From positions 434,001 to 498,000 of the forward strand of contig SCKJ01000001.1 of the NCBI GenBank assembly GCA_004124875.1: 64,000 bases of DNA, given 5' to 3'. Shown here piece by piece: positions 31,301 through 47,945 of the stretch. This DNA comes from Fidelibacterota bacterium. Its GTDB lineage: Bacteria; Fidelibacterota; Marinisomatia; SCGC-AAA003-L08; TS1B11. Every line of letters begins with the position of its first letter. Within the stretch, counting starts at the first letter, position 1. Made by a program: the position numbers and the translations under genes. The notes under the pieces were generated by a model, which was not told the DNA's origin, ran no database searches, and saw nothing but the letters and a program-made list of their open reading frames with translations.

Positions 31301-33460
31301 ACAGATCCAACACCAGTGGGGCTCCTTGCACAGTATTCGCTTGTTGAGGGCTCGTGGAACATAGCGACTGTTTCGGGAGATACTTCCCAAATTGCCTTCG
31401 CTAATTATGCCGGCCAGTTGATCTGGAGCACCGTTACAGATTTGCCCGGAGTTGACCAATCAGATATTCAGTTCAGACTCAGCCCTTACACCGATACCAC
31501 CGGTGTAGCTGACACCCTTGTATTCCAAATAGACAATAACCTGCCTCCTGGCATCATTCTGGATGAACTGGTGGGCGAACAATCTGGGGATATCACAATA
31601 CCATACCAGCTAGTAGACGCGGAGGGAGATTCTCTCGACATTCTTTCAGAATACTACAACAGTACCCTGCAGAGCTGGGTAAAGGCTGCGACAACTGGGA
31701 TCACTCAAGGTATCACCCAATATGGTGGCGCAATCCTCTGGAACAGTTTGAACGATTTGCCTAACGGCCTGGGGTTCTACGATTTTCGAATCTCGCCTAA
31801 GGATAATGACCCAGGAAGGGCCGATACTGTCACGATTTTAATTGACAACATTGGAGCGCCCGTACTAAGTCTCTCAGGGACTCCCGTTGAAGAAGTTTCG
31901 GGCGATATCACGTTTGGGTTTTCTGTCAATGATGATGAAGGAGATCCGATCTTCCTGATGGCAAGCTATTCCCTTAATTCCGGATCGACCTGGGTTAGCG
32001 CCACGGTTTCAGGCGATACCGCTCTGGCAGGTTCGACTCAGTACGCTGGTGGGGTAATTTGGCATTCGAATATTGATGCGCCGGGTTGGGACTTATTTAG
32101 TGCCCGGTTCAGTCTTGTACCCTCCGATTCTCGTGAAGGGTTGGGCGATCAAACCAGTGATTTTCACTTGGATAATAATGAGCCACCAAGTATATCAATT
32201 CAACTTCCCAGCGATACAATTTCTGCCTATGCCGACATCAGCTACAGCATCAGCGATGCAGAAAATGACACGATTTCCGTTCTTGCAGAGTATTCACTTG
32301 ATGGCAAAACTTGGGGTGTATCGACACTAACAGGAGATCGTACCAATGTATCTCAGTCCGGTTATTCTGACGTGACAACTTGGGATCTCATCACCGATAT
32401 CGGTTTTCATCGTCGCACTGGAGTCCAGCTCCGTTTTTCGCCTGCTGACAAGGATGTGGGTATTTCATCGAGTATCGAGAATGTTTCGATTTTGAATTAC
32501 GCCGGAGATTACAATGGCGATTTAATAATTGGCGTTGATGATTTGGTACATTTCGCAGCCGCGTGGAATGCAGATCCACAATACCTGACGTATGAGCTAG
32601 GTCCTGCAACGGGAGCCGTTCCGGATCTTATACCTGTAGTTGATGGCATCATGAATATTGAGGATCTTGCTGTCTTCGCGCAAATGTGGAATTGGAGTTT
32701 TGCCAATACCGGCTTCGCAAAATCGTTCCCAACCTTGGCAAAGACGATTACTTCGGAATCCTCTTTAAGGTTGATTCAGAAAATACCGGATGATATCTGG
32801 AGTTGGGACGGCAGGATTTTCATCAGGCTTGAAGGAGATTTATCGTCTAGTCTGATGATGGTTGAGGGGCTTCTCTCCGTGGATGGTTCGCAGATGCGAC
32901 TCGCACGCTTTTCAAATGGCGGGGCGATGGCTGAACACTGGTCATCAGTACCTCTGTTTATGCAGACCTCGGAAGATAGTAGCCAATATATCTTTGCCTT
33001 AGCCGGCCTTGGAGTACGAGAGTATGAAGCTGGGGGAGAAGACCTCCCGATTATGGTCTTCGAAGTTGATCTGACTGATCCAGGTACCCAAAATCTATCT
33101 ATGGACTACACGCTTTGGAACCGCAAAGGCGAGCCGGTCGAGTCTGGAACGATTAATCTTGAGGTTGAGAATCTCCTGCCGACTAAATATGCTTTGCACC
33201 AAAACTACCCGAATCCCTTCAATCCTACCACGACCATTAGGTACCAGCTACCGCGAGCCTCCAGAGTCCAACTGCGGGTATATAATTTGCTGGGGCAGGA
33301 GATTATTCGGCTGGTGGATAAAGATCTGGGACCGGGGTACCATCAGGTTATTTGGGACGGCAGGGACCGCTCTGGGCGAGCAGCATCCTCTGGTATCTAC
33401 ATAGTCAGATTGACTACGCAAGGATACGCCAAATCGATAAAATTGGTGCTGCTGAAGTAG
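25331..33460 (+). CDS. Giant T9SS protein: beta-helix, FN3, two PQQ propellers, dockerin-like
   Basis: 2,709 residues. Order: signal peptide (1-24); an Ig-like N-domain; a right-handed parallel beta-helix (about 155-610, IEPGVEVRFQP then Asn/Gly-rich rungs); two FN3 domains (614-835); a PQQ-type propeller (about 844-1195, starting WGKFHQDRQNSG with repeated YVGSxxGxLYA blades); four FN3 domains (1197-1600); a second propeller (1610-1960, WGKFHHDLQNSG); four SGDI-type Ig repeats (1964-2390); a dockerin-like pair of calcium loops (DYNGDLIIGVDDL and PVVDGIMNIEDL, 2391-2457); a beta domain; and a T9SS sorting tail (HQNYPNPFNPTTTIRY to the end). The two propellers are internal duplications. GTG start overlapping the cohesin gene. 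Probably a large cell-surface scaffold. Confidence 0.85.
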   Translation: MIDSRHALLITLAVFLTLGHLSAQTVTGFVTLTDVTGTEALNFPEGDTLYVKLVDSDRDLDNLIADQVSVSLSSAFESTTESLTLTETDLSSGLFMGWMLFDAVSGLAVTDGVLQVEQGNQLTVSYTDPADDFGNQSILTDNAYYNVSLASGIIAVNTTWTKATSPYLVTGDVTVNPNITLTIEPGVEVRFQPVSDDQSGGLDANRTELRIRGGTLRAEGTVTDSIIFTSNAEVPGTGDWYGIVQDSLNNGSINGHIIITYSRFEYHSVGIKVYQYADYSVVDTIRVEHSHFRQGGRVISSQNGGQRYIVFNDNLVDDGGGIYYPDQIRGAVIQRNIFNKSSIYFSSPDGAVQIRDNSFNGIGPNNSEWAINISWGRGAEITGNTLTSTQYGINVYGAYGGSYLIADNSLDSVYYAQIQIQQIPNITIRNNTITNGRNNDNSYAGIYIWNWDIYSTQAVIRGNTITGGNSPGMYLNRVSGIIDSNIVQNNTRGGIYLTGEFGYTSIDSILYNTITGNGAPYYGIYLNGYTRPVLQYNNLHDNASYDVYGNIAASTLETIDARFNWWGTTTTTAFNAGGNPKNIAKIYDLYDDATLGFVNYGQWLSMEVNITDILPPETIADLSASNPTSNTIDLTWTSPADDGASGNASNYELRFSSSTIDDANWGSATQVTTGVPTPATAGATEQMTVTGLSPSTAYYIAIKSSDGAGNVSALSNVTNSTTAPPDLTAPSAITDLALSQATSRTITLQWSAPGDDDAVGTAASYDVRLSLSAIDDNNFAAATAITENVPAPSVSGSSEQLLITGLEPYTTYYFAIKTSDEADNVSAISNIATGSTAEAPSFSPDLVWGKFHQDRQNSGRSPVNGAAQDTILWKFATGGVINSSPTLDAEGAIYFGSEDGNLYALNPDTTLKWSYDVGGGISAAPLLATLNFLYVGSKNGRFYAFNRATGDTIWSYNAGDQIISSATIDQGGRVYFGSINGTLYCLDSETGAPFWTRSIGTRIYASPALSIDDSTVYVGGYDGKIYAVSVDTGGVRWSYSTGSQIYGSAAVDSSGVVYVGAANGNLYAINGDGTLKWQYATGGAIFYSSPAFGTGGQIYIGSDDKSLHAIKRSDGTSLWTYATGGVVRNAPAVTAEGNIYFSSADSSVYGLSTSGSLVWSRKIGGAVQLSSVGVGPIGNLYVGAYDNYMYKVGTTDTIPPAVPQNFAAQGGDLEVTLTWSSAQEFDLSKYILYRSTSDGFTPQSSDSLALPGKSDTTFWDTTVVNDVSYYYRLVALDIAGNRSAATPQVGATPTDLPPRIPIDFVANNGDGVVGLGWSANTDRDLAGYVLYRSDQAGFVPGASDSLTFIAKPATTYQDSTVINGLTFYYRLKAVDLTGFRSLASAEVTGEPRDFTPPEPPQNVAVADGDKQVTLSWTANTEPDIEGYIIYRSEVINFTATDNDSLGITLHPQTSFIDTGLVNDQTYYYRIVAVDSLWNKSAVSDQLTGRPTDQTPPAAITDLTITSQTSRSISISWTAPGDDGSTGRATEYDLRYSSATIDDQNFDSATRVTADVPAPDTAGISQLYTVTSLDANTTYYLTIKTVDDKGNASSISNVVSSLTDALPVLSDRSPWGKFHHDLQNSGYTSIPGTVTDSVIWEYPTLSVVNSSPTIDWEGVVYFGSEDGYVYALDPTGTLKWSYQTGGGVSASPLVATLNRLYVGSKSGIFYGFNRETGDTVWTYQVGDQIISSATVDHTGKLFFGSINGVLYSLDAETGELIWQTSLGNRIYGSPALSHDDSTLYIGGYDGLIYAVGTKTGTVKWSRSTGSPIYGAAAVDPDGNILIGSSNGILYALSPVDTLLWQYSAGAAIFYSSPTIGLHSTVYVGSDDNKLHAVNLKNGVGKWTYAAAGDVRSSPLVAGNGLVYFASGDSNLYAVDTSGALFFKRKLGGAVQLSSPGIDFDGNVYIGSYDNIMQKIGSPFGSQLAVRISSNGIGEVSGDIPIDFVISNTDPTPVGLLAQYSLVEGSWNIATVSGDTSQIAFANYAGQLIWSTVTDLPGVDQSDIQFRLSPYTDTTGVADTLVFQIDNNLPPGIILDELVGEQSGDITIPYQLVDAEGDSLDILSEYYNSTLQSWVKAATTGITQGITQYGGAILWNSLNDLPNGLGFYDFRISPKDNDPGRADTVTILIDNIGAPVLSLSGTPVEEVSGDITFGFSVNDDEGDPIFLMASYSLNSGSTWVSATVSGDTALAGSTQYAGGVIWHSNIDAPGWDLFSARFSLVPSDSREGLGDQTSDFHLDNNEPPSISIQLPSDTISAYADISYSISDAENDTISVLAEYSLDGKTWGVSTLTGDRTNVSQSGYSDVTTWDLITDIGFHRRTGVQLRFSPADKDVGISSSIENVSILNYAGDYNGDLIIGVDDLVHFAAAWNADPQYLTYELGPATGAVPDLIPVVDGIMNIEDLAVFAQMWNWSFANTGFAKSFPTLAKTITSESSLRLIQKIPDDIWSWDGRIFIRLEGDLSSSLMMVEGLLSVDGSQMRLARFSNGGAMAEHWSSVPLFMQTSEDSSQYIFALAGLGVREYEAGGEDLPIMVFEVDLTDPGTQNLSMDYTLWNRKGEPVESGTINLEVENLLPTKYALHQNYPNPFNPTTTIRYQLPRASRVQLRVYNLLGQEIIRLVDKDLGPGYHQVIWDGRDRSGRAASSGIYIVRLTTQGYAKSIKLVLLK

Positions 33461-33506
33461 TTTTCTCCCTCTCCCGTTGCCCTTATATTCCAGAATAATC
33501 CTGTTG

Positions 33507-33525
33507 AAATTCGTATATGTAATAT
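33507..33525 (+). repeat. Direct repeat copy 1 (AAATTCGTATATGTAATAT)
   Basis: It matches 34,005-34,023 at 18 of 19 positions. It is followed directly by a strong hairpin. Confidence 0.6.
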
Positions 33526-33526
33526 A

Positions 33527-33553
33527 GATGCGGGGACTCCAACTCCTCGCATC
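33527..33553 (+). terminator. Hairpin after the giant gene
   Basis: Stem GATGCGGGGA with TCCTCGCATC (33,527-33,536 with 33,544-33,553, one G-T pair) and a seven-base loop, 66 bases after the giant gene. There is no T tract, so it may end transcription only weakly or stabilise the mRNA 3' end. Confidence 0.45.
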
Positions 33554-34004
33554 GCCCCAATTTCGATTCCCAACAAACCTCAGTTAGATGGGTGAAATCG
33601 CTGCAGATATTTGGGATCATCCAGTTTTTGGCCGTCATAGGGTGAAATATCTATCCCCGTTCCATGAATAAGCGCGTATTCATAACGTGACGACGTACCT
33701 CATTTTGAGGCAAAAGAGGCGTGAATTATCAACCGTCTGCTATTTTTCCCGAGAGAAGATCGATTTTAAGGGGTATAATCATAGCCAGAGCTAATCATAC
33801 GGTTGGCGGAGAAATCAGGCCAGGCCGCCAATTGTGTGTTTTGAAACCATATTTTCACAGTTTTCATCCACAATTAGAACTGTTGAGAACATTGACATTG
33901 AGATTTGGCAAACACTAAATCGAGTCAAGCAATCCATCCAAATCTCTGCAGACATCTGTAAACCATCCAATCCTCACACTCAAATTCGGAAAAATTGCCT
34001 CTTA

Positions 34005-34023
34005 AAATTCGTATATGTAGTAT
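34005..34023 (+). repeat. Direct repeat copy 2 (AAATTCGTATATGTAGTAT)
   Basis: Second copy, about 190 bases before the resolvase start. It too is followed by an imperfect inverted repeat (GAAGC...GCTTC). Confidence 0.6.
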
Positions 34024-34216
34024 GAAGCGGAGAAATTTTAGTCCCTCGTGGAGCTGAATTTCCTGCTTCGATTAAACCTTCATTTGATCGGCCACGGCTT
34101 CCATGTTCAATAACCTGTCAAATCTGGCTGAATAACGCCTAAAAACTCATCTAATAATCAAAGTCCAGCAAATGCGGTTCACATCCGTTTGTTGGACAGA
34201 TACGAAAGGAATGCCT

Positions 34217-34795
34217 ATGCTGATCGGTTACGCGCGAGTCAGTACGGCTGACCAAACTATCGATTTGCAGATTGATGCGCTTGAGGACGCCGGGTGTTCG
34301 AAGATATTCACGGACATAATCAGCGGTTCTAAAATTGCGCGCCCCGGACTTGACGATGCCCTGGCATATCTACGTGAGGGCGATACGCTCGTCGTTTGGA
34401 AACTCGATCGATTGGGCAGATCATTGAAGCATCTAATCGAAATCATCACACACCTAAATGAAGAGGGAAAAGAGTTCAAGTCGTTGCAGGAAAGCCTCGA
34501 TACGGCAACGCCAACCGGGAAGTTGATTTTTCATGTCCTGGGCGCGTTGGCCGAATTTGAGAGATCCTTGATTCGGGAGAGAACCAAAGCGGGACTGGCG
34601 GCCGCGAGAGCTCGGGGCAGGATTGGAGGGCGCCCTCGCGTTTTGAACAAGCGGAATGTGGCCCTGGTTAAATCGATGCTGGCAGACCCCTCCGGCACTG
34701 TTAAAGAGGTTGCAGAGACACTCGGTGTTTCGCGAGCGACGATTTACAACTATTTGAAACAAGAAAACAAGCCAACACCAAAGGAGTTAACATGA
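34217..34795 (+). CDS. Serine recombinase of the resolvase/invertase family
   Basis: A 192-residue enzyme of the small serine recombinase class (Tn3 resolvase/Hin type). The N-terminus MLIGYARVSTADQ carries the catalytic serine in ARVST (near residue 9). LVVWKLDRLGRS holds the conserved Arg residues, and EFERSLIRERTKAGLAAARARG is the long E-helix. A C-terminal helix-turn-helix of Hin type follows (VKEVAETLGVSRATIYNYLK). All key residues appear present. The start at 34,217 has AAAGGA six bases upstream; ATG 34,211 is too close to that box. It may resolve element multimers or invert DNA. The next small gene overlaps its stop (ATGA), so the two are coupled. Confidence 0.93.
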   Translation: MLIGYARVSTADQTIDLQIDALEDAGCSKIFTDIISGSKIARPGLDDALAYLREGDTLVVWKLDRLGRSLKHLIEIITHLNEEGKEFKSLQESLDTATPTGKLIFHVLGALAEFERSLIRERTKAGLAAARARGRIGGRPRVLNKRNVALVKSMLADPSGTVKEVAETLGVSRATIYNYLKQENKPTPKELT

Positions 34796-34929
34796 CCCAA
34801 TCTCAAATCATCAAAGCGGCCAGTAGAGGCCAGATGGTGCTCAGTATCGCTCTGCTCATCCTCCAAATCGCAAGCCTGCTCAAAGGCCGCGGGGCAGGGA
34901 GCCATGCCGGAACCCCGGCTGCCTCGTAA
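34792..34929 (+). CDS. Small predicted membrane protein (45 residues)
   Basis: A 45-codon gene whose ATG overlaps the resolvase stop (ATGA), with AAGGAG six bases upstream. The protein has one hydrophobic helix, MVLSIALLILQIASLL, between a polar N-terminus and a Gly/Ala-rich tail, so a single membrane span. It overlaps the next gene by 26 bases. No family is recognised. Its strong ribosome-binding site and coupling support translation. Confidence 0.6.
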   Translation: MTQSQIIKAASRGQMVLSIALLILQIASLLKGRGAGSHAGTPAAS

Positions 34930-35134
34930 AGGTAAGGACCAGGTGGTGGACGTTCAGATTCGCCACCTGGTTTTAGGTCTTCTGGCTGTGGGGGCCATCC
35001 TGGCCCTGATCTCGGTAGGCGGCAAGATCGTGGTCGAACGGGGCCGCATCCGCAGGCAGCAGGACTTGCTCGATGGCGCCCAGGCGCTGCTCGCAATGAT
35101 TCAACAGCTAAAAGAGAGAGGGAAATCAACGTGA
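34904..35134 (+). CDS. Small membrane protein with coiled-coil tail
   Basis: 76 residues: a basic N-terminus, one transmembrane helix (HLVLGLLAVGAILALISVGG), then a charged helical tail (VERGRIRRQQDLLDGAQALL). GGGAG precedes the ATG at a good distance. The topology is that of small phage accessory proteins such as spanin or holin partners, but no family is recognised. It overlaps both neighbours (26 bases upstream, GTGA downstream), as part of a tightly coupled run from the resolvase to the zinc-ribbon genes. Confidence 0.62.
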   Translation: MPEPRLPRKGKDQVVDVQIRHLVLGLLAVGAILALISVGGKIVVERGRIRRQQDLLDGAQALLAMIQQLKERGKST

Positions 35135-35382
35135 GCGGTAAAATCAGATTCACCATCACCAATGAGAGTCTGGGGCAGATGGTCGATATCGTTGCCGGGG
35201 GCGCATTGCTGGCGAGCAACGCCTTCCTGGTCTTTTCGGGCCTGAAAGAGCAGGCGGATAACAGGCGCAGGCAGCAGACGGCATCGAGGTTGCAGGGCTT
35301 TGCGGAGCTGGCAGCCGGCCTGGCCGCTTTGGCCCGGGTGATCGGGCAGAGCCTGGAACGCCATAATGGTTCGGGCAGCTAA
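35131..35382 (+). CDS. Small unknown protein, possible membrane-associated
   Basis: 83 residues from GTG 35,131, which overlaps the preceding stop (GTGA). A hydrophobic stretch IVAGGALLASNAFLVFSGL is followed by a basic QADNRRRQQ segment and an Ala/Leu-rich helix. It may insert in the membrane like its two upstream neighbours. It overlaps the following zinc-ribbon gene by 17 bases. No family is recognised. Confidence 0.55.
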   Translation: MSGKIRFTITNESLGQMVDIVAGGALLASNAFLVFSGLKEQADNRRRQQTASRLQGFAELAAGLAALARVIGQSLERHNGSGS

Positions 35383-35911
35383 AATCTATGAGCCGGGTGA
35401 CAGGCGGCTGTTCTCGAACAACCTGCAGTGCTACAGTTGCGGCAACACCCGTTCCTTTTCCATCGATCTGCGCCTACGCCACAAGGTAGAGGTAACGCCG
35501 GCAGGTATTGAGGTGAGCCTGGATAGGGCCAAGACTGATAAGGTCCTGCAGGCCCTCCAGCGCAATCTCTGCAAGGTTCTTGATGGCGGCTTCTACCGCG
35601 ACAACCCCCGAATCCACTGCGCTAACTGTGAGGAGGGCGAAACGGTGGACATGGTCGAACGCATCCTCGATGTCTGCTGGATGGAAGGCTGCCCGGGCTG
35701 CTGGTACTGCGGAAACTTCATCCCCAAGGATGACCTCATCGAGACCTGCAGCGACTGTCTGGTACAGAATGAGGGACAGGTGAATGAGGAAGGCTGCCTT
35801 TACAGCTGCCCGAATTACGACCAAGGCCTATCCCAAGTCCGCGATCATTACGGAATATCGTTGGATTCCTTAAGAAAACAACTGGGCTACCCTGATCCCC
35901 CTGCCGGTTGA
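35366..35911 (+). CDS. Zinc-ribbon protein, paralogue 1
   Basis: 181 residues with several CxxC pairs: CYSCGN near residue 22, CANCEEG near 85, then CWYCGN, CSDC and CPNY in the C-terminal third, enough to bind two or three zinc ions. The opening pattern 'CxxCGNxxxFxxDL' is shared with the next two genes, which therefore look like paralogues. ILDVCWMEGCPGCWYC is an additional Cys-rich segment unique to this copy. Function unknown; zinc-ribbon proteins of this size usually bind nucleic acid or RNA polymerase. A terminator follows at 35,947. Confidence 0.65.
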   Translation: MVRAAKIYEPGDRRLFSNNLQCYSCGNTRSFSIDLRLRHKVEVTPAGIEVSLDRAKTDKVLQALQRNLCKVLDGGFYRDNPRIHCANCEEGETVDMVERILDVCWMEGCPGCWYCGNFIPKDDLIETCSDCLVQNEGQVNEEGCLYSCPNYDQGLSQVRDHYGISLDSLRKQLGYPDPPAG

Positions 35912-35946
35912 AGGTCGAATCTGCCGGCAGGCGGGATGCCCAACCG

Positions 35947-35978
35947 GGGCCAGAGGCTTTACGCTTCTGGCCCTTTTT
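35947..35978 (+). terminator. Rho-independent terminator inside the gene run
   Basis: Stem GGGCCAGAGGC with GCTTCTGGCCC (one G-T pair), a five-base loop and TTTTT. It separates the first zinc-ribbon gene from the second and may work as an attenuator, since the downstream genes continue on the same strand within 21 bases. Confidence 0.85.
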
Positions 35979-35998
35979 CATTCATGGAGGGATTTTAA

Positions 35999-36409
35999 AT
36001 GAGACTGATCTGCTCGAGCTGCGGAAACTATCGGCATTTTGTCTGCGATGTGGAATCTATCGCCATCGTGGAGCCGACGCCATCGGGTCTGCAGGTGAAA
36101 GACCGGGACCGGGACGGAACTTTTGACAGCGGCAGTTGGGTGCGCATGGGGATCGAAGAACTCGTTGACTACTGCTGCCGGGAGGACCTTGGCGCGCTGG
36201 TCAAAGATGCTTCCACCGGACGCCTCATCAACCCCCGCATCACCTGCGGCCGCTGTGGCAGCAGATCTGTCTGCGTCCCTTACCGGTCATGGCAGCCCCC
36301 ACGCCCAGACCTGTCTCTCGATGAAGAAATCACCCAAAACCGTAATGAGCTGTTGTGGCTCAGAAAGGAGCGCCAGCGCTATGGAAATCAACTGCCCCTG
36401 CGGCAATAG
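35999..36409 (+). CDS. Zinc-ribbon protein, paralogue 2
   Basis: 136 residues: CSSCGNYRHFVCDV at the start, then VEPTPSGLQVKDRDRDG, and CGRCGSRSV near residue 82 completing a four-Cys zinc ribbon. The tail (EEITQNRNELLWLRKERQR) is helical and charged. It shares the opening pattern with its neighbours. GGAGG lies well placed before the ATG. It overlaps the third paralogue by 29 bases. Function unknown. Confidence 0.65.
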   Translation: MRLICSSCGNYRHFVCDVESIAIVEPTPSGLQVKDRDRDGTFDSGSWVRMGIEELVDYCCREDLGALVKDASTGRLINPRITCGRCGSRSVCVPYRSWQPPRPDLSLDEEITQNRNELLWLRKERQRYGNQLPLRQ

Positions 36410-36647
36410 TCAGTCCTTCGTGCTCCCTCTCTGGGCCAAGGTGACGTTTATGATTGAGGAGAGCGGTGACATCAAAATCCTGCATACCAAGCCCCTTGAA
36501 TCGCTGGAGGAAAAACTGATCGATCAGGGCAAATCATCCTTCAATCTCACCTGCTCCGAATGCGGGGGTGATGATGTTCAGGTCCAGTTTCAGCCGGCGG
36601 GCACCGGGCAGGAAGACCGCAAGCGCAAAGCATTGGAGGCTCTATGA
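36381..36647 (+). CDS. Zinc-ribbon protein, paralogue 3
   Basis: 88 residues from ATG 36,381 (AAGGAG upstream), the shortest of the three. CPCGNSQSFVLPLWAKV opens it, and CSECGGDDVQVQF supplies the second Cys pair of the ribbon, with a helical tail rich in Lys and Glu. A longer reading of the same frame from 36,123 runs through paralogue 2 and lacks any signal, so I reject that start. It overlaps the next gene by ATGA. Confidence 0.65.
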   Translation: MEINCPCGNSQSFVLPLWAKVTFMIEESGDIKILHTKPLESLEEKLIDQGKSSFNLTCSECGGDDVQVQFQPAGTGQEDRKRKALEAL

Positions 36648-37489
36648 ACGGCGACTACAAAACCCAAATCACCGAGCGAGTTAAGGAAGGGGTCAACAAC
36701 TGGGTCGGGGAGCTTAAGACCAAGCATCCGGAACTGCTGCTGACCCGCCAGTGGCGCGCTCTCTGGCCGCGGGGATTTGAGGAGGGGCACAATGTTGTGC
36801 CGGTGGTGACCTCAGCCAAGCAGGGTCAACATCTGGTGGCTGAAGCCAGCTTTGTGCTGCCCGCATCCATGGAGCTCGATTTGGATGCCTTGGAACTGTC
36901 GCTCAAGGATGAGGCCTACGCTTCCGGCGCTCAAGTTCAGGCAGCTTCTGAGGCCAACGATCCCCTGGGAACACTCAGCAGTTTGGTGCGAGGCATCAAC
37001 GGTTTTCTGGAGAGTCTGGCGGGCAAGCAGGCGCCTGTGGTGTCATCGGATCCACTGAGTACTATCAACCCACGCCCATTCTCGGCGGCCTCCCCCCTGT
37101 CCATCCAGCGGCCGTGGGAGAGCCATGCGTTGCAGGACATCACCCAGGTGGAGGATATCCGTCAGGCTATGGCTAAAAGTCCTTATTTGCCGGAGTGGTA
37201 CGCCACGATCTCCAGCCAGAAAGTGGCGGATGATCTGCTCACCCGGCTCGCTGAAGGTTACCTGCATCAACGGTCTCTGGGACGCACCAGCGGCCTCAAA
37301 GACTACTTCGAGCTGTACACCGCCTACCTGAAAAAAGAGAACAAGGTGCACGAGTTCTGCTCCTACAAAGGGAAGCCGGTGAAACTAGACGACCGCGGAT
37401 TCTGCACTGAGAGTTACTGCAGTAAGAAGCCGTTCCAGGCGGTCTGTCCCCGCACGTCACTGCGCTTCGGAGCCCACCCTGATGACTAA
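36644..37489 (+). CDS. Unknown protein of the replication-like cluster
   Basis: 281 residues, ATG overlapping the preceding stop. No signal peptide or membrane segment. The N-terminal half has a run VVPVVTSAKQGQHLVAEASFVLP of beta character; the C-terminus contains four cysteines (FCSYKG, FCTESYCSKK, AVCPR) that could form a small zinc site. It lies between zinc-ribbon genes and a DNA sliding clamp, so a role in element replication or repair is inferred from context only. No family is recognised. Confidence 0.55.
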   Translation: MNGDYKTQITERVKEGVNNWVGELKTKHPELLLTRQWRALWPRGFEEGHNVVPVVTSAKQGQHLVAEASFVLPASMELDLDALELSLKDEAYASGAQVQAASEANDPLGTLSSLVRGINGFLESLAGKQAPVVSSDPLSTINPRPFSAASPLSIQRPWESHALQDITQVEDIRQAMAKSPYLPEWYATISSQKVADDLLTRLAEGYLHQRSLGRTSGLKDYFELYTAYLKKENKVHEFCSYKGKPVKLDDRGFCTESYCSKKPFQAVCPRTSLRFGAHPDD

Positions 37490-37512
37490 ACCAAAAAATG
37501 AAAGGAGGCCCT

Positions 37513-38628
37513 ATGCTGGCCACACTCAAACGCCTGCTGCCCATGGCCGAAAAGATCGTGGACCGAAGGTCATCGCTGCAGATACTGCGAACCATCTGTC
37601 TGGAAAACAAGATGGCTCGTGTCACCGATCTGGAGAGCACGCTGGTGGTGCCGATCAACAATGGTATCTCTGCGTGTCTGCCTCTTGATCTACTCAGGAA
37701 GCTGCTTAAATCCAAGCCTGCCAATCTGCAGATCGAGCCGTCCGGGTCCCGTCTAGTGCTGGTCCATGATGGCCGGCGGCTGAGCTTCAAAGGGCTACAA
37801 ACAGACGATTTTCCGGAGATACCATCCGGGAAGTTCAATGAGATTGGCAAGTGGCCTCGGGAGCTCTTTGGAGAGCTGTTGCTGCAGAGCCGGTTTACCT
37901 CGACAGATGAATTAAAACCGAGTCTTCAAGGCGTTCATCTGGTGCAGATCGGCAACGAGATCGAGACTCAGGCTACCGACTCGCATGTCCTTCGCTTTCG
38001 CCGTGGCCTGAAGATTAGTGCCGGCAAACCGTTTGAAGGGACTCTGCCGGTGAAACCGCTACAGCTATTGGCGCGGATCGCCAAAGGCAATACCACCGTG
38101 GCTGCGTCGAGCGATCATCTGCGCTTTTCACTCCCCGGCGGAATCACGCTCTACGTCCGCCTATTAAGCGAGAAATACCCGGATGTGGCAAGCGTCATCC
38201 CCAAGGCGTTCACCGGTAGCGCTGTTGTGAATCGGGAGGAGTTGCTGACCCTGGTCAATGCGGCCACGCCGTTTGCAGATAAAGAGACCAACCTGATGAT
38301 GCTCGAGACCGGAGAAGGTTCAGCGATCATGACCGTTGAAAACCAGCAGGTAGAGACGAAGTGGGAGGCGACCCTGAAGCTCTCTGAACAACAAGGTGGC
38401 ACTCTGCGCATCGGCTTCAACTTAAAATTGCTCGAGCGAGTGCTGTCGCTGCAGCAGTCACCAACCGTCCTTTGGCAGTTTACGAATCAATCAAGCGCCT
38501 CCATGTTTACCGAGATTGGTGAGCAGTGGGAGTCCGGCGCTCAAACCATCATAATGCCTATTCGACTAAAAATGGAGAAAACTCATGAAAACGAAAAACG
38601 TGATCATCGACAAACCGCAGCAGCTTAG
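37513..38628 (+). CDS. DNA polymerase III beta subunit (sliding clamp) homologue
   Basis: 371 residues, close to the usual 366. Clamp features in order: ILRTICLENKMARVTDLE (domain 1 opening), an EIP segment near residue 105, LQGVHLVQIG, ATDSHVLRF, LPVKPLQLLARI, LPGGITLYVRLLSEKYPDVASV, then FADKETNLMML and the terminal IIMPIRL, the counterpart of the conserved C-terminal MPMRL. The protein forms a ring around DNA that tethers polymerases. After MPIRL come about 19 extra residues that overlap the next gene, so the natural stop has probably been lost. An element-borne clamp is unusual; it probably serves element replication. AAAGGAGG sets the start at 37,513. Confidence 0.83.
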   Translation: MLATLKRLLPMAEKIVDRRSSLQILRTICLENKMARVTDLESTLVVPINNGISACLPLDLLRKLLKSKPANLQIEPSGSRLVLVHDGRRLSFKGLQTDDFPEIPSGKFNEIGKWPRELFGELLLQSRFTSTDELKPSLQGVHLVQIGNEIETQATDSHVLRFRRGLKISAGKPFEGTLPVKPLQLLARIAKGNTTVAASSDHLRFSLPGGITLYVRLLSEKYPDVASVIPKAFTGSAVVNREELLTLVNAATPFADKETNLMMLETGEGSAIMTVENQQVETKWEATLKLSEQQGGTLRIGFNLKLLERVLSLQQSPTVLWQFTNQSSASMFTEIGEQWESGAQTIIMPIRLKMEKTHENEKRDHRQTAAA

Positions 38629-39385
38629 CGATGAAATTGAAGGGTTCCGGCTCGATGCCATCGACGCGGAAGCGAACTACACGGTGGCACGATTGCGCCT
38701 CTGCAGAGACTCGCAGAGCCACGAGCCGGTACTGTTCTACTCCCAGGAACTCTCACGCAACTTCAAGAATCCGGACGACCCATTTGCCAGACGGCACCTG
38801 ATCAGGGCGTTCGTGCCGGGTCAGTTCGGGGCGGCAGCTGACGAGGCCATCACCTCCAAGTTTCAGGATTCGTTGTTGGCCCACAAGCCAACCATTTCTG
38901 ACTACTCGCCACTGTCTGACATCCACTCTGAGAAGATGTCGCTCTTTATGGATGAGGAGACAGCGCAGTTTTTGGAGGATCAGGAGATCCGAGTTGACGG
39001 CCTGGCTGAGGACTTCCAGTCGATCGAATCAATCTCCGCCAACGCCTACATGGAGGGCATTGCCTTTGATGCTTCCCAACTCAAACGAGAACTGGGTAGG
39101 ATCAAGGCTCAATGCGCCGTTCTCAAAGGCGAAATGGCTGATCATTTTGAGGAGCCGATTGAGCCCAATCTTATATCGGAAGATTTGTTCGCCGAAGCCC
39201 TTGCCAGGCAGACCAAAATGCCGCAAGGAATGATGCAGTCCTACCTGCTCGTTCGCGAGCAAATGGTCGAGGTTGAAAAGCAGCTGGGCGAGTTCGATGC
39301 GGCGGTATTTTCTGAAACAGCAAGCAAAATTTGCCTGCCCAAAGCGGTCGAGTTGTTGCCACTACTGCCGGCTATGGCAAGCTAG
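38585..39385 (+). CDS. Unknown protein next to the clamp gene
   Basis: 266 residues, acidic and largely helical (LEDQEIRVDGLAEDFQ, LKRELGRIKAQCAVLKGEM). GGAG is well placed before the ATG. It overlaps the clamp gene by 44 bases and is followed 12 bases later by radC, so all three are likely cotranslated. No family, membrane segment or metal motif is recognised. Context suggests a role with the clamp, which is unproven. Confidence 0.55.
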   Translation: MKTKNVIIDKPQQLSDEIEGFRLDAIDAEANYTVARLRLCRDSQSHEPVLFYSQELSRNFKNPDDPFARRHLIRAFVPGQFGAAADEAITSKFQDSLLAHKPTISDYSPLSDIHSEKMSLFMDEETAQFLEDQEIRVDGLAEDFQSIESISANAYMEGIAFDASQLKRELGRIKAQCAVLKGEMADHFEEPIEPNLISEDLFAEALARQTKMPQGMMQSYLLVREQMVEVEKQLGEFDAAVFSETASKICLPKAVELLPLLPAMAS

Positions 39386-39397
39386 AAAGGAGGCATC

Positions 39398-39853
39398 ATG
39401 GTCGATGATTATCTGATGAATCGGGTTTCAGATGAGGATCTGCGGAAGGCTTATTCGGCCCGCTTCTCCATGAAAATGGGTGAGGTCTTAACCGGCAGTC
39501 AGCAGGTCGCTGATCATCTACAGGCCATGCTGGCAGGTCGGACCCGGGAGACTGTCGTGGTGATATTCCTGGATGCAAGGAACGCCTTCATCGGCAGCGA
39601 GATTTGCTTTGAGGGTACGGTGACCCAAGCGGTGATCTTCCCCAGGGAGATTGTTAAAGTGGCGCTGCTGAAAAATGCAGCGTCCCTCATTCTTGGGCAC
39701 AATCATCCGAGCGGGCAGACTCGACCAAGCACCGACGATCAGGAGATCACGAGGAAGCTTAAGCGCGCCTGCGAGCTGGTCGACATCCCACTTTTGGACC
39801 ACGTGATTGTGGGCGACGGCTACTTCTCATTTGCTGACCAAAACATCCTATAA
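39398..39853 (+). CDS. radC: RadC-family JAB/MPN protein
   Basis: 151 residues forming the MPN+ (JAB) domain of RadC. The metal-binding motif HNHPSG is at residues 101-106, followed by an Asp near 114 (TRPSTDD), and a Glu-bearing strand lies upstream. The helix-hairpin-helix N-domain of chromosomal RadC is missing, as in the short versions carried by phages, plasmids and islands. The biochemical role is unsettled; a metal-dependent hydrolase acting on DNA ends or branched DNA has been proposed. It follows the clamp cluster, with AAAGGAGG before its ATG. Confidence 0.9.
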   Translation: MVDDYLMNRVSDEDLRKAYSARFSMKMGEVLTGSQQVADHLQAMLAGRTRETVVVIFLDARNAFIGSEICFEGTVTQAVIFPREIVKVALLKNAASLILGHNHPSGQTRPSTDDQEITRKLKRACELVDIPLLDHVIVGDGYFSFADQNIL

Positions 39854-39866
39854 ATAGGAGGGAATT

Positions 39867-40058
39867 ATGAAGATTGGCTTTGTCCAGCCTGAGGAAGAAA
39901 TCGTAGACGATGTCGGTTTTATCGAAACAGCACTCGGCAGGGGTTCTGCAGATATGAGTTGGCCCTCCTGGGTGTTGATGATCTTCCTTCATTTCTGCAT
40001 CGTGCAGGTGATCATCACTTTTGCCAAAGAGCTGTTCAATTTCTTCTTCTCACGCTAA
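39867..40058 (+). CDS. Small membrane protein (63 residues)
   Basis: 63 residues: an acidic N-terminus (QPEEEIVDDVGF) and a C-terminal hydrophobic helix (WPSWVLMIFLHFCIVQVIITF) ending FFFSR. AGGAGGG lies just before the ATG. It is the last gene before the structured leader at 40,109. Function unknown; the tail-anchored topology is inferred. Confidence 0.6.
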   Translation: MKIGFVQPEEEIVDDVGFIETALGRGSADMSWPSWVLMIFLHFCIVQVIITFAKELFNFFFSR

Positions 40059-40108
40059 TTCAAATCAGGCGGGCTTGTCTAGCCTGCCCCTCAATCATAA
40101 CTTGCCAA

Positions 40109-40226
40109 TGTAACACGATCAGTAGTCTACGATAGTACCGAGCAATTACCCATAACAGAAAGACTCGGGGGAAGAATCCTCTGCAGCCGCCTGTAATGGG
40201 TAGCTCGGGCTATTGATCGTGTTACA
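40109..40226 (+). ncRNA. Long imperfect hairpin, candidate regulatory RNA
   Basis: TGTAACACGATCA (40,109-40,121) pairs with TGATCGTGTTACA (40,214-40,226), 13 base pairs that extend to about 20 with wobbles. Inside, CCGAGC (40,138-40,143) pairs with GCTCGG (40,203-40,208), TACCCAT (40,147-40,153) with ATGGGTA (40,196-40,202), and ACAG with CTGT, with a GGGGGA/TCCTCT apical hairpin. No known riboswitch class is recognised. It lies 106 bases before the start of the CsgG-like gene. A transposon-derived (MITE-like) palindrome is the main alternative; no target-site duplication is visible. Confidence 0.55.
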
Positions 40227-40250
40227 ACTGTCGATACACCTGGGTCTGGC

Positions 40251-40331
40251 TGCAGGGGATTTTTCATTCTCCTGCAAATGGCTCCGGTTTCTGATGGTGA
40301 GTTCTTGCAACACGATCAACGGAGTCCTATC
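40251..40331 (+). promoter_or_regulatory. Leader with hairpin, alternative pairing partner and start region
   Basis: TGCAGGGGA (40,251-40,259) pairs with TTCTCCTGCA (to 40,276). Further on, AACACGATCA (40,309-40,318) repeats the left arm of the big hairpin and could pair with TGATCGTGTT (40,214-40,223) instead. That second pairing would run to within two bases of the GGAG ribosome-binding site (40,321-40,324) of the CsgG-like gene. Confidence 0.45.
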
Positions 40332-42122
40332 ATGATCATCAAACCAAAACGCCGAGATTTCTTGCTGTCCCTGCTGTTACTGAACACTGTCGCGGCCCAG
40401 AAACTAGAGAACATCACTGTCCTGCCTTTTAGCGGATGGACCGGAAATGCCAGATCTGCGCAGGAGTATCAGAACGCTCTCACCGATAAAATCGCCACCA
40501 AGATCATTCAGTCTCACCGCTTTAACGTCATCGACCGGACCCACTTGGACAAGGTGCTTGCCGAGCAGGATCTGCATCTGACTGGCCTCATAGATGAGTC
40601 CACAGCTGTGCAAATGGGCAAAATAGCGGGAGTGAACAAGCTCATTATCGGCAGTTTCACCCGCAGCAGCACGGAACTACATAAAGCCGTCTATTCCAGT
40701 GGACAAAAAATCTCTGACGCCTACTACTCGGCAGTGGTACAGACGTCCATCAAACTGCTCGATGTGCAGAGCGGGCGTTACCTGGAGGCAGCTGAAGCCG
40801 AAGGTACGGGCAAGAGCTCGGACCAACGCAATGCTCTGCTCAATGCGCTTGATGAAGTTGCTGCAGCGGTCATCACGAGCTTTGAGAAGTACTTCGCTAT
40901 CCAGGCCGTGATCACATCGGTAGACAAGGCCAGGGTCACCTTGAACCGCGGTTCGATGGGCGGCGTAAAAGCAGGGATGGACTTTCTGGTTTATGACCTG
41001 CCGATTACGCCGGGCCAGGCCATGCCGACAATCGAATCAGGCAACGAGTCCATTGGCATTGTTCGTATCATCTCAGCCGAGAGCGAATCGGCCCTTGGCA
41101 GAATAATGGCTGGCTTTGACAAGGTGCAGGCCGGCCATCTTATTAGGGAGACCAAGACTGAGGTGAACACCCTGGCCATGGTACTGGACAAGACCGGCAA
41201 GCAGGTCATTATCAATGCGGGCATCGATCTAGGCATCAAAGCAGGCATGACTTTCGATGTTGTCACCGCTGGCCGGGAGATCACCGACCCGATGACCGGC
41301 GAGGTATTCCGTACTTCACCAGTCAAAGTCGGCATCATCTACATCACCAATCCCGGCACTCGTTCATCTGAGGCGAAGATCATCAAGGGTCAGGAAAAGA
41401 TTGATGCAGGTATGTGGATATTGGAGCGGGAGACGGCCATGGTCAGCGTCTCTGCATCTCTTTCAGTTGGGCTCCTCAGCGCCAATTTTGCGCCCAACAC
41501 GGTTGTCGACACGTTCACCGTTAATAACAAGTTCACCGGCATCCATGAGGTGATTGTCGATTACTCCGATTATGAACCCATTACCGGTGGCCTGGTATTT
41601 CAACTAACAGGCGTGCGCCGGGACCTGGTGCAGGGGTACTCGGTTGGTTTTGCCTTTAACTATTTCAGCTATACGGGCGATGTGAGCGCCTGGGCACTGG
41701 ATATAATGGCCACATATGACCTTGCGCTGGTGCCTGATAGGCTCACGATTTCGCCAGGTCTAACAATAGGTTACGGTATTGCCTCACAGGATCTGCCAGG
41801 CGGAATTGTTGCCCAAATCAGCGACAATGTCAGTTCGTCCTTATCCTCCGGCGGCATATCGATCACGCCACAGGTGAGCCTGCAAGCAAAGATGGGGAGC
41901 CTGACCATCACCGGCGACATCGCCTACCGCCTCTGGAACATCAGTAGTTGGTCTTATGATGTGAACACCGGCAAAAAGGATGACTCTGGAAATGATGAAA
42001 CCGAATCCTTTGAGCTCGATCCTGGCATGATCCCCTACCCTGAAATATCCGTGGGAGGCCTCTACTTCACTTTCGGTCTCTCGATTGAGGATTTCTGGTC
42101 GAAGATGACCAATCTGTTTTAA
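40332..42122 (+). CDS. CsgG-like exported protein with C-terminal beta-barrel-like half
   Basis: 596 residues. Signal peptide MIIKPKRRDFLLSLLLLNTVAAQ; then a CsgG/FlgO-like domain (NITVLPFSGW, KIIQSHRFNVIDRTHL, GKIAGVNKLIIGSFT, about residues 25-200). A middle segment (RVTLNRGSMGGVKAGMDFLV, twice repeated as VIINAGIDLGIKAGMTFDVV) resembles FlgT-type C-domains. The last 200 residues have alternating beta strands ending in LYFTFGLSIEDFW, as in an outer-membrane barrel. Homologues act in secretion or anchoring of surface fibres. GGAG is eight bases before the ATG 40,332; an upstream in-frame ATG at 40,278 lies inside the structured leader and is rejected. Confidence 0.78.
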   Translation: MIIKPKRRDFLLSLLLLNTVAAQKLENITVLPFSGWTGNARSAQEYQNALTDKIATKIIQSHRFNVIDRTHLDKVLAEQDLHLTGLIDESTAVQMGKIAGVNKLIIGSFTRSSTELHKAVYSSGQKISDAYYSAVVQTSIKLLDVQSGRYLEAAEAEGTGKSSDQRNALLNALDEVAAAVITSFEKYFAIQAVITSVDKARVTLNRGSMGGVKAGMDFLVYDLPITPGQAMPTIESGNESIGIVRIISAESESALGRIMAGFDKVQAGHLIRETKTEVNTLAMVLDKTGKQVIINAGIDLGIKAGMTFDVVTAGREITDPMTGEVFRTSPVKVGIIYITNPGTRSSEAKIIKGQEKIDAGMWILERETAMVSVSASLSVGLLSANFAPNTVVDTFTVNNKFTGIHEVIVDYSDYEPITGGLVFQLTGVRRDLVQGYSVGFAFNYFSYTGDVSAWALDIMATYDLALVPDRLTISPGLTIGYGIASQDLPGGIVAQISDNVSSSLSSGGISITPQVSLQAKMGSLTITGDIAYRLWNISSWSYDVNTGKKDDSGNDETESFELDPGMIPYPEISVGGLYFTFGLSIEDFWSKMTNLF

Positions 42123-42202
42123 TCCCAAGATTATTATCTCAAATCGAGATTGATTCAACATACTTGATAAAAATTAATACTGTCTATAAGGAGGGAACCC
42201 TC

Positions 42203-43288
42203 ATGAAACACACACCTAGTAATTTTATTTTTTTATTGCTGATAATTGGATGTGATATGGGAAGCACCGATTCGATTTATCGCGAGAATCTCCAAAGGAC
42301 TGGAGTATCGATAGAAGATCCAATTGGTGATAATCCCAACGTGAGTCTTTTGAGTGATTGGTTATGGACCCAGGAGCAGATGGCATCCCCCGTAATATCC
42401 GGCGGATCTATCATAAGCGGCGGCTTGACCATCTCAAAACTGAAAGCGACGGACGGCGAACTTAAATGGAGCAAGAATGCCCCCGGTCGGTTCGTTACCG
42501 GAACACCGATTATTTCTGGTAAGCAAATATTTTTCCTCTCCGGCCAAAGCTATCTGAGTGCGTTTAGATTGAAGGATGGCGAGAAACTCTGGTCCACCAA
42601 AGTGGCGCCTGTTTGGCAGGTCATCTCACCCCTCGTTGTCGATGGCAGAGTCATAATCTCAACATCGGAATCAACCGTATTGGCATTTGACCAAGATGAC
42701 GGAAGATTGTTGTGGCGGCATGCGCTCGATGGCAAGTCATACACTTCAGCCTCATATAATAACAATATCGTCTATGTCGGTTCAATGGCAGGAGCCTATG
42801 CCTTAAATGTTGGAGACGGTTCAGAAGTTTGGCATACTCCCAATTACCACATAGTAACAATCATCGTCTATTCCGACAACCATTTATATTATGGAATAGG
42901 CGAGGGAGACATTATTGCGCTGGATGCCTCAAATGGCGAACTGTTATGGAAGTATAACACTGGGAGTGAGATTTCTTCATCTCTTGCCGTGGACCAGACC
43001 TCAATATATGTGGGCAATGCGGGAGGAAAATTAGTAAGCATTGAGAAACAGACAGGCTCCTTACAATGGTCTTACGATGTTGACACTCTCATTCGCTCCT
43101 CATCAACTGTTGCTGGTGATGTTATTTACTTTGGAGATATGAATGGGGTAGTGCACGCATTGGATAAATACAGTGGCCAAAAAATATGGACCGTCGACGT
43201 CGGTGGGCCTATTCGAGTATCGCCGACTCTTTCTAAAGACGGACTCATCGTCTACACTGATGAAGGGGACCTCTACAGGCTAAAATAA
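42203..43288 (+). CDS. PQQ-repeat beta-propeller lipoprotein (BamB-like fold)
   Basis: 361 residues. Signal with lipobox (LLLIIGC), so lipidated at Cys. The body is a seven- or eight-bladed PQQ-type propeller: repeats such as KATDGELKWSK, RLKDGEKLWSTK, ALDASNGELLWKYNTG and ALDKYSGQKIWTVDVG. The fold is that of BamB, a scaffold for protein contacts. It closely resembles in style the two propellers of the giant dockerin protein, so a related surface complex is plausible. AAGGAGGG precedes ATG 42,203. The transcription unit ends at the terminator at 43,313. Confidence 0.83.
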   Translation: MKHTPSNFIFLLLIIGCDMGSTDSIYRENLQRTGVSIEDPIGDNPNVSLLSDWLWTQEQMASPVISGGSIISGGLTISKLKATDGELKWSKNAPGRFVTGTPIISGKQIFFLSGQSYLSAFRLKDGEKLWSTKVAPVWQVISPLVVDGRVIISTSESTVLAFDQDDGRLLWRHALDGKSYTSASYNNNIVYVGSMAGAYALNVGDGSEVWHTPNYHIVTIIVYSDNHLYYGIGEGDIIALDASNGELLWKYNTGSEISSSLAVDQTSIYVGNAGGKLVSIEKQTGSLQWSYDVDTLIRSSSTVAGDVIYFGDMNGVVHALDKYSGQKIWTVDVGGPIRVSPTLSKDGLIVYTDEGDLYRLK

Positions 43289-43312
43289 AGGTACGCCCAA
43301 AGCTGCGCAATT

Positions 43313-43347
43313 AAAGCCACCTGATCAATGATTGGGTGGCTTTTTTT
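43313..43347 (+). terminator. Strong Rho-independent terminator
   Basis: Stem AAAGCCACC with GGTGGCTTT (43,313-43,321 with 43,335-43,343) followed by a T tract. It ends the CsgG-like/PQQ unit and isolates the defence-like block downstream. Confidence 0.92.
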
Positions 43348-43478
43348 ATCTTCGAGATGGGGCCTAGAAGCATACCCAGCACTGTGGGGTCAAAAGGTAA
43401 TTTTGAGAGCGCAGAGAGGTGCTGTGCAAGCTATGAAGTGGATCTACTAGGTCGATCTGAGCCTGTACGTTCATATAT

Positions 43479-43593
43479 GATGCCACCATCGGTAGGAAGG
43501 TGGCATCCATGATTGGATTCATTTGTCACTTCCAATTTTCATATCCAAGTAATAGATTCGCCTTCGTACCCATAGTGTATATATTGTCGACAA
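43479..43593 (+). promoter_or_regulatory. Hairpin and palindrome before the ParB-helicase operon
   Basis: A nine-base-pair stem GATGCCACC/GGTGGCATC (43,479-43,487 with 43,499-43,507) without a T tract, and a perfect palindrome TTGTCGACAA (43,584-43,593) some 56 bases before the ParB-like start. The palindrome could be an operator, possibly autoregulatory. The rest of the 300-base spacer shows nothing else. Confidence 0.4.
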
Positions 43594-43649
43594 AATGAAT
43601 ACCGAATCTGATTTTTGAGGGAAGGATAGCCGCAAATAAGGAGAGTCAA

Positions 43650-45053
43650 ATGCCCGCAATAACGACATCAGCAACGCGTGAAATAATCGATGATTTCGCG
43701 CAGGAAATTCAGCATCGATTGACAAAAACTCCGAAGCCATCCATGGAAGTGATCAATTTTAGAAATGAAACAAAAGAAAAGCGTGAACGACCGATAGTTA
43801 GTGTCCCCATCGAAATTCTTCGATACAGGAAGAATAATGGGCGTATAGCCTCAGATGTTCTCGATCACGAGCGAAATGTAGGTATGTTGGATGAAAAGGA
43901 TGAACTTTCCCAAGAGACGATAAGAGATTTTCTTGAGAAGAAAGACCCGGAGCGCACGGAAGTCCTAAAGAAAGACATCATTCATAAGGGGCAACGGGAA
44001 CCCGCAATTATAACTTGTGATGGTTTCCTCGTCAATGGCAATCGCCGAAAAATGGTGCTTCAGATGCTCCAGCATGAGTTCCCCAACGAGGATGAGTACA
44101 GATTTATGAACGTCGTAATCTTGCCAGGAAAAAATGAAGAGGGAGGCCCACCGACACTACTCGAAATTGAACAGATTGAAAACCGCTACCAACTCCAGAG
44201 TGACGGTAGATCAGAATATTACGGATTCGATCGTGCCCTATCTATCGAGAGGAAAATTGAATTTGGATTCTCTCTTGAGGCTCAGTTGCGTGACGATCCA
44301 CAATATGTGAATGGCACACCCAAGGAAATCAAGATAGCAGTTAAAGAATATCAAAAGAAATATATTCAGCCGCTAAGATGTGTTGATCGATACCTTGCCC
44401 AGTTTGGACGTGAAGGACTTTATCGAACAATCTCGACAGGAATGTCGGACCCCGAAGGCCGTTGGCAGGCATTTATTGACTACAGCAATGCCTATATGAG
44501 CATTTTCAGCAATCCAAAAAATCTTTTAAAGTTTGGAATCGAGGAAGATGAAATCGGCGAAATTGAGGAGGCTGCTTTTGATATTATTAGACTCCGAACA
44601 GTGCCTGACATGCCTAAGGTTCATACAATTATGCGGAATTTACCCAAGTATTGTCGCACCAACGAAGGCAAGAATGCTATTAAATCGATAGCGCAAAAAG
44701 TAGGCCCCATTTTATCAAGTGAGGAATCAATTGATGAGAACGGCAAACATTTATCGATCCAAGAAATTGATGCAAAATGGGCTGCCAAAAACATCGAGAC
44801 GATCACCTATCACATCAAGACTGCATCGCGAAGCCATGAATCATTGAAGGAAAGGGAAACACCGCTTGAGTTACTAGAAGCAGCGTATAAAAAACTCACA
44901 CATGAAGACATGGATCTGGAGTCAATAGCGATCAATGATCTTGATAAGGCCCGGAAGTTGGCGGTAAAAGTTAAAAATCGTGCTAGCGACTTAGAGAGCC
45001 AAATATATCACTTCAAGAAAGATTTAAAACGCCTTAAGAATAAAAAGTCGTGA
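43650..45053 (+). CDS. ParB-like nuclease-domain protein of a defence-like operon
   Basis: 467 residues. Residues 48-140 form a ParB N-terminal-like domain: IVSVPIEILRYRKNNGR, an inserted charged loop, then PAIITCDGFLVNGNRRKML-type sequence with the NGNRR box (129-133) of ParB-fold proteins. The rest is helical and ends in a coiled coil of Lys-rich residues (DLESQIYHFKKDLKRLKNK). It has no partition helix-turn-helix. AAGGAG precedes the ATG, and its stop overlaps the helicase start (GTGA). In defence contexts ParB-like proteins act as ATP- or CTP-dependent sensors or nucleases; the role here is inference. Confidence 0.75.
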   Translation: MPAITTSATREIIDDFAQEIQHRLTKTPKPSMEVINFRNETKEKRERPIVSVPIEILRYRKNNGRIASDVLDHERNVGMLDEKDELSQETIRDFLEKKDPERTEVLKKDIIHKGQREPAIITCDGFLVNGNRRKMVLQMLQHEFPNEDEYRFMNVVILPGKNEEGGPPTLLEIEQIENRYQLQSDGRSEYYGFDRALSIERKIEFGFSLEAQLRDDPQYVNGTPKEIKIAVKEYQKKYIQPLRCVDRYLAQFGREGLYRTISTGMSDPEGRWQAFIDYSNAYMSIFSNPKNLLKFGIEEDEIGEIEEAAFDIIRLRTVPDMPKVHTIMRNLPKYCRTNEGKNAIKSIAQKVGPILSSEESIDENGKHLSIQEIDAKWAAKNIETITYHIKTASRSHESLKERETPLELLEAAYKKLTHEDMDLESIAINDLDKARKLAVKVKNRASDLESQIYHFKKDLKRLKNKKS

Positions 45054-47876: not shown

Positions 47877-47945
47877 TTGACTTTTGAAAAGATTCTCCCC
47901 ATGACAACTGAATATATATCGCCCACCCATACAGAAGAATCACTG

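Follow-up and report, generated by a model that had tools for sequence, protein, structure and literature searches.

The window analysed here is a 64,000-nucleotide stretch (G000:C7:434001-498000) of a 3.02-Mb Ca. Neomarinimicrobiota genome (G000), and the searches described below as covering the phylum were made against 245 genomes of that phylum. An earlier note on this DNA had spoken of an island that carries its own DNA sliding clamp, and the island itself is borne out by a 45-bp direct repeat (19928-19972 and 57657-57701) corresponding to the 3' end of tRNA-Met. The G+C content between the repeats is mostly below that of the flanks, and the 3' end of a tyrosine integrase gene overlaps the tRNA-Met gene. 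With both the repeat and the integrase present, the island is a tRNA-integrated mobile element. It contains a run of genes, here called the cassette, that recurs in other genomes. The features of the island are as follows, in window coordinates:

19928..57701, no strand: integrated island, repeat to repeat, 37.8 kb (45-bp direct repeat)
34172..34795, plus strand: serine recombinase, 5' of the cassette (PF00239, 1.9e-48)
34904..35134, plus strand: S1, small protein with one hydrophobic helix (tblastn; hydropathy maximum 2.49)
35131..35382, plus strand: S2, small, moderately hydrophobic protein (tblastn at the equivalent position in other loci; hydropathy)
35366..35911, plus strand: A, zinc-ribbon-like protein with 12 invariant cysteines, labelled by inspection (alignment of 12 rows)
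35999..36409, plus strand: B, zinc-ribbon-like protein related to A (tblastn)
36381..36647, plus strand: C, small zinc-ribbon-like protein (tblastn, start codon)
36644..37489, plus strand: D, 281 aa, four invariant cysteines towards the C-terminal end (alignment of 8 rows)
37513..38628, plus strand: E, by homology a second beta sliding clamp (alternative start 37498)
38585..39385, plus strand: F, the most conserved cassette protein, overlapping the clamp gene (alignment of 9 rows)
39398..39853, plus strand: RadC, JAB domain only (PF04002, 4.5e-42)
39982..40264, plus strand: conserved, strongly folding element 3' of RadC (identity to G193:C1, fold z-scores)
56411..57713, plus strand: tyrosine integrase in two frames, 56411-56785 and 56925-57713 (PF00589, 8.6e-21, for the second piece)
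57658..57731, minus strand: tRNA-Met, the integration site (ARAGORN)

As the earlier note had it, a full-length beta-clamp homologue is followed by an overlapping gene and a short RadC. The clamp ORF spans 37498-38628 (376 aa), and the alternative start at 37513, which gives 371 aa, agrees with the start of a 90%-identical homologue (L003/L034). The C-terminal (8.6e-9) and central (1.8e-6) Pfam clamp domains each score above the curated cut-off, and the N-terminal domain reaches 18.4 bits, under its 24.4-bit cut-off. The protein also matches phrog_947 ('DNA polymerase processivity factor') over residues 8-358 (9.2e-46), as well as solved clamp structures (best 1.3e-18). On the whole, these matches place it in the bacterial beta sliding clamp superfamily, with a diverged N-terminal domain. 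The 19 residues past MPIRL, previously described as a read-through tail, belong to a single open frame and reflect the 44-bp overlap of the clamp gene with F. Similar C-terminal tails, of 16 to 19 residues, are present in four relatives (two copies in G193 and those of G190 and G023), and three other island clamps stop 2-3 residues past MPVRL/MPVSL.

That the host already encodes a clamp proves correct: the only other clamp of G000 is a dnaN at G000:C7:207027-208109, which adjoins a RecF-like ORF (RecF by eye) and whose product is 27% identical to the island clamp. Because G000 keeps its own dnaN elsewhere, the island clamp is a second clamp. In a tree of 39 clamps, which omits two long-branch rows (phage Perkons and an Alteromonas plasmid) and the partial G190:C229 copy, 10 island clamps group together in a single clade (support 100/100, stem 2.24). 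The 23 host-phylum clamps, to which the island clamp is 25-28% identical, fall outside this clade, as do three phage and two plasmid clamps. The clamp is therefore an element-borne second copy rather than the sole, host-grouping dnaN that the earlier note had considered as the opposite outcome. It aligns with chromosomal DnaN over its full length and three domains, and has most cleft residues as well as the MPxR end in common with it; it differs in its separate, long-stem clade, in changes at Arg176 and the dimer interface, in being a second copy and in having no dnaA/recF neighbours.

Residues are given in E. coli numbering, and the positions are those that we take to form the partner cleft, the dimer interface and the DNA-facing surface. 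L155, T172, H175 and P242 of the cleft are retained in 10/10 island clamps, M362 and P363 in all nine clamps that reach them and L177 in 9/10. R176, on the other hand, is V, L, I or M in every one of the ten, compared with R in 21/23 host-phylum clamps (K and Q in the others), so that the partner cleft appears largely kept apart from this one loss. R246 is uninformative because it is S in 21/23 host clamps as well. At the interface, F106 is replaced by L, V or I in 10/10 island clamps (Y in 23/23 host clamps), I272 by P in nine and E in one (I or V in the 23 host clamps), and E304 by A, S or T in 9/9 (E in the 23 host clamps); the three positions have changed jointly, and E298 is retained in 7/9. 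The residue check proposed in the earlier note thus separates a mostly kept cleft from an altered interface. Clamps might also compete, as it suggested, but with its interface altered the island clamp more probably forms a homodimer of its own than mixed dimers with host DnaN. On the DNA-facing side, R24 is present in 7/10 island clamps vs. 23/23 host clamps, a partial loss that speaks slightly against full equivalence in DNA binding, and net charges range from -14 to +6 in island clamps and from -25 to -5 in host clamps. From these residues we infer that the island clamp is probably a ring that pairs with itself and can still bind partners.

The clamp gene is part of a conserved gene order, which in all loci read is S1, S2, A, (A2, N6-MTase-like), B, C, D, clamp, F, (H), (RadC), (I), with optional genes in brackets; I is FmdB-like by eye. 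S1 has tblastn matches at the equivalent position in L035, L039, L042, L043, L093 and L094. Queries with A and B cross-match within the window (tblastn, 2e-4 to 3e-4), and a listed ORF at 36123-36647 is an over-extended version of C. None of A, B, C, D and F has a Pfam family above the cut-off. D gave no PDB match of note and F no meaningful PDB or PHROG match, and a PADLOC scan of clamp, F and RadC, which left A-D aside, returned no family for any of the three. Fold predictions for F and D, from two-sequence alignments each, have low mean pLDDT values of 45.1 and 40.9. Homologues of F are 46-87% identical to the window protein in the 9-row alignment. In RadC, H101, H103, S111 and D114 are invariant (5 rows), and this HNH, S and D set is presumably the JAB metal motif. 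Together with the PF04002 match, the seemingly intact motif assigns the protein to the RadC-like JAB family. According to an excerpt of PMC5512222, mobile elements and prophages carry RadC domains; our protein shares with the mobile-element RadC described there that it is a JAB-only RadC on an integrated element, and differs in that it comes last in a clamp operon of which it is not a constant member.

Three cassette copies include an N6-MTase-like gene between A and B (L040 690-1703, L039 6830-7708 and L042 4221-5141), and the L040 and L042 versions finish with a zinc-ribbon-like stretch that looks similar to A/B by eye. A further locus (L061 2-514, G190:C155) has the start of A fused to mid-F at a short shared stretch, with B to E gone, which is either a deletion or an assembly artefact. 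DNA similarity between G000 and G193:C20 spans 36720-39838 and ends near the end of RadC. For this pair, dN/dS by a simple counting method is 0.21 for D (partial, since the G193:C20 contig starts inside it), 0.14 for the clamp, 0.12 for F and 0.07 for RadC (dS 1.26), and the cassette genes are under purifying selection.

In a protein search of the 245 phylum genomes, cassette clamps were seen in 8 genomes as 11 copies, scoring at least 155.9 bits, compared with 108.6 bits for the best other clamp. The D profile matches 11/245 of these genomes, and D or F is present in 12/245. The F profile finds 10/392 genomes, every one within the phylum; the genomes of this set that come from other phyla, about 147 (392 minus 245), give no match. 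Several genomes hold two or three diverged cassette copies. A clamp is present in 11/12 cassette copies with a readable clamp position; in G181, D is followed directly by F, the cassette contains no clamp, and the single clamp of the genome lies elsewhere. A cassette without D at G193:C1 was also considered and rejected, as tblastn reveals S1 to D there. By tblastn, F is absent from plasmids and phages, D from plasmids and A from phages. No relative was confirmed in IMG/VR, either with single queries (clamp, F, D and A) or with the clamp alignment, though these scans required exact short motifs, so that relatives may be missed. The open-licence PubMed Central literature yielded nothing on this cassette, and the clamp operon with its dedicated ring has so far been seen in one phylum only. 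The earlier note had called element copies of the clamp rare. The island clamp has matches in 58 records of plasmids, among them megabase replicons, and in 19 of phages, and it is the conserved cassette around the clamp that is unusual.

The window genome also contains a 61-bp fragment of F in an intergenic region (G000:C17:111529-111594; L065 10029-10094, minus strand), 82% identical to F of G193:C1. It is best read as a relic, a trace of an earlier cassette copy; a CRISPR spacer was considered and dropped, since there is one lone copy with 82% identity to an F gene.

Both pieces of the island's tyrosine integrase align to a full-length integrase (L070 3780-4985), and the split over two frames means that the island may no longer mobilise itself, or reflects an assembly error. 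A copy of the serine recombinase, 66% identical, precedes the cassette in G190:C72, and L039 has a remnant of it. Right of RadC, a restriction-like run at 43650-53953 encodes an SNF2 helicase, a NOV_C protein, a D12 adenine methyltransferase, an HNH protein and an Mrr-type protein, the last of which matches PADLOC PDC-S02 at 1e-132. A three-gene cargo run (a PEGA/CsgG-like protein, a second gene and a giant protein; window 23269-33460, L034 4949-12490) is on the left side of the cassette in G000 and on its right side in G193:C20.

A second delimited element is found in G193:C1, with repeats at 382091 (44/46 bases), 418095 and 422901, the last within tRNA-Phe. Its cassette lies at about 399.4-404.7 kb; the element also encodes a DUF5906 primase-helicase, and its integrase is situated immediately inside the repeat at 418095. 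The region G193:C1:382091-422946 has three tRNA-Phe repeats with integrases before two of them, and seems to consist of two elements in tandem. A 1270-aa protein inside the second delimited element (L069 238-4050) matches phrog_18693, of unknown function, at 6e-135. G190:C374 is collinear with G193:C1 behind the cassette, DUF5906 included. DUF5906 also lies beside the G213:C40 cassette copy and occurs in 4/12 cassette genomes. Integrases adjoin tRNA-Phe in G156 and G213:C40, and in G023 the integrase is directly behind the cassette. No integrase was seen in the stretches read of G193:C20, G196 and G213:C3, and some other contigs are short. The cassette is common to elements that differ in other genes, integrase genes being what else they share. 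Independent replication of the island, in the form suggested in the earlier note, is so far not supported: no primase, polymerase or clamp loader was recognised among the island proteins scanned, a subset of its ORFs, and the DUF5906 primase-helicase is absent from the whole G000 genome.

Behind RadC, the element at 39982-40264 is 79.6% identical to its counterpart in G193:C1 over 285 bp, compared with 67-69% for matched stretches inside the cassette genes. Read as the plus strand, both fold far better than shuffled sequences, with z-scores of -5.9 (window) and -7.4 (G193:C1). Copies occur in 3/245 genomes (window 39982-40264, L035 11789-12067 and L100 10-69), one of them only a contig-end fragment. 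Of 67 hairpin pairs, compared in two sequences only, 52 are unchanged, six are kept despite change (five one-sided, one two-sided) and nine are broken or gapped. The single Rfam match lies outside the hairpin and scores far below the gathering threshold. The tail downstream is in parts complementary to the hairpin interior. The element may act as a regulatory RNA, serve as an origin hairpin or be a site of recombination.

An important question is which proteins the ring might bind. F abuts or overlaps the clamp gene in 9/9 copies having both, and its M118, L120 and F121 are invariant (9 alignment rows). The motif M[NS]LF is present in 10/11 F copies covering this stretch, with MMLF in G181, and five of the 11 read QxMNLF; the window protein has SEKMSLF, without the Q. 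For comparison, E. coli delta has QAMSLF, and the clamp-binding consensus is given as QL(S/D)LF, with much variation, in an excerpt of PMC9690074. These resemblances provide a lead, suggesting F as a likely clamp partner via MxLF. On the other hand, the whole stretch is conserved and is kept in the clampless G181, so MxLF may not be a clamp motif.

How could these components work together? The reading that we prefer, and to which we attach about even confidence, is that the cassette is a DNA-maintenance module of integrative elements, with a self-pairing ring loaded by the host and F as a likely partner. The module would comprise two small membrane-type proteins, three zinc-ribbon-like proteins, the Cys4 protein D, the clamp and F, joined in some copies by further proteins such as RadC, encoded as an operon that appears to reside in tRNA-integrated elements of Neomarinimicrobiota. 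The ring would pair with itself rather than with host DnaN and would be placed on DNA by the host clamp loader; use of the host loader is most likely because neither a loader nor a polymerase is encoded among the cassette and island proteins scanned. Through its largely kept hydrophobic cleft, the clamp may tether cassette proteins, F foremost, and host enzymes to the element DNA during copying, repair or excision. In favour of this reading are the fixed gene order, the clamp in 11/12 readable cassette copies, the single clamp clade, the dN/dS values, the kept cleft residues beside the jointly changed interface, the position and MxLF of F, and the elements with tRNA repeats, integrases or DUF5906. 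The clampless cassette of G181 implies that the clamp is not indispensable, or that the host clamp substitutes for it. The lack of a recognised replication gene in the window island and the frameshifted integrase count against a maintenance module, as do the loss of Arg176 from every island clamp and the copies (G193:C20, G196 and G213:C3) whose stretches read contain no integrase. A more ambitious version, which we regard as less likely than not, is that S1-S2-A-B-C-D-clamp-F forms a new multi-protein machine: a membrane-linked zinc-ribbon complex that would travel along the element DNA on a dedicated clamp, which the rebuilt dimer interface would keep from mixing with the host ring, with the hairpin nearby in some elements, and that would be the core of undescribed Neomarinimicrobiota integrative elements.

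Among the rival explanations we rank defence cargo first and transcription as in T4 second, followed by a substitute or decoy clamp and a phage leftover, which are about equally unlikely. As cargo for conflict, in defence or counter-defence, the cassette would encode a complex that is tethered by the clamp and detects or acts on DNA that is invading or being replicated. The restriction-like run and the Mrr-type PDC-S02 protein on the same island, the N6-MTase-like gene in three cassette copies, the diverged copies in several genomes and the patchy distribution (12/245) are all compatible with this, but PADLOC models match none of clamp, F and RadC, and a cassette common to elements with differing other genes resembles a core more than a cargo. 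We consider defence unlikely, though not far-fetched.

A role in transcription, with the clamp loaded at nicks or forks and tethering zinc-ribbon proteins and host RNA polymerase to late promoters of the element, could account for an operon with three zinc-ribbon-like proteins and no polymerase. However, zinc ribbons are not specific, as they are found in many replication proteins too, no sigma-like or gp33-like protein was recognised, and a kinship of the clamp to gp45 would be hypothetical. We consider this role improbable. Clamp-driven transcription is established in T4 according to an excerpt of PMC7892883, and gp45 resembles the island clamp in being a mobile-element clamp with non-polymerase partners, a likeness by analogy only.

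It is similarly improbable, and slightly more so, that the gene is an ordinary phage or plasmid clamp surviving in the remains of a prophage, outside any special module. The phrog_947 match and the occurrence of clamps on phages and plasmids would fit, and such clamps (e.g. p081 of Rhizobium phage 16-3) share with ours their location on mobile DNA and the lack of an own loader in the stretches seen. Those compared are only 22-30% identical to the island clamp, however, and lie outside its clade, and their neighbours (RecA-like/Sak4, Cas4-type exonuclease, HNH, sigma factor) differ from the cassette genes, for which the phage, plasmid and IMG/VR searches gave no confirmed relatives in the combinations described above. 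Fixed gene order and purifying selection also argue against decay.

In griselimycin and mycoplanecin producers, second DnaN copies stand in for a poisoned host clamp. Such compounds bind the clamp cleft, and the change at Arg176 in 10/10 island clamps might suit a substitute for a poisoned host clamp, or a decoy competing for host clamp partners, but at 25-28% identity to host clamps the replacement of DnaN with its many partners is unlikely, and we give this explanation about as little weight as the phage leftover. Excerpts of PMC10817943 report that an antibiotic producer has another dnaN close to transposase genes, a putative gene for self-resistance; griR/mypR are like the island clamp in being a second genomic dnaN, near transposase genes, yet known resistance dnaN genes lie in biosynthetic clusters, whereas here a very diverged clamp sits in a conserved cassette operon of DNA type with no biosynthetic cluster.

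The finding is larger than the clamp of the earlier note, as it concerns a conserved operon with a dedicated ring. In it, a clamp on mobile DNA has become fixed together with five larger families (A, B, C, D and F) without a Pfam match above the cut-off. The operon marks a family of integrative elements to which, in a literature search on the phylum, no paper was devoted, and it offers a handle on the purpose of a dedicated second ring in bacteria and on whether two rings can function in one cell without mixing.
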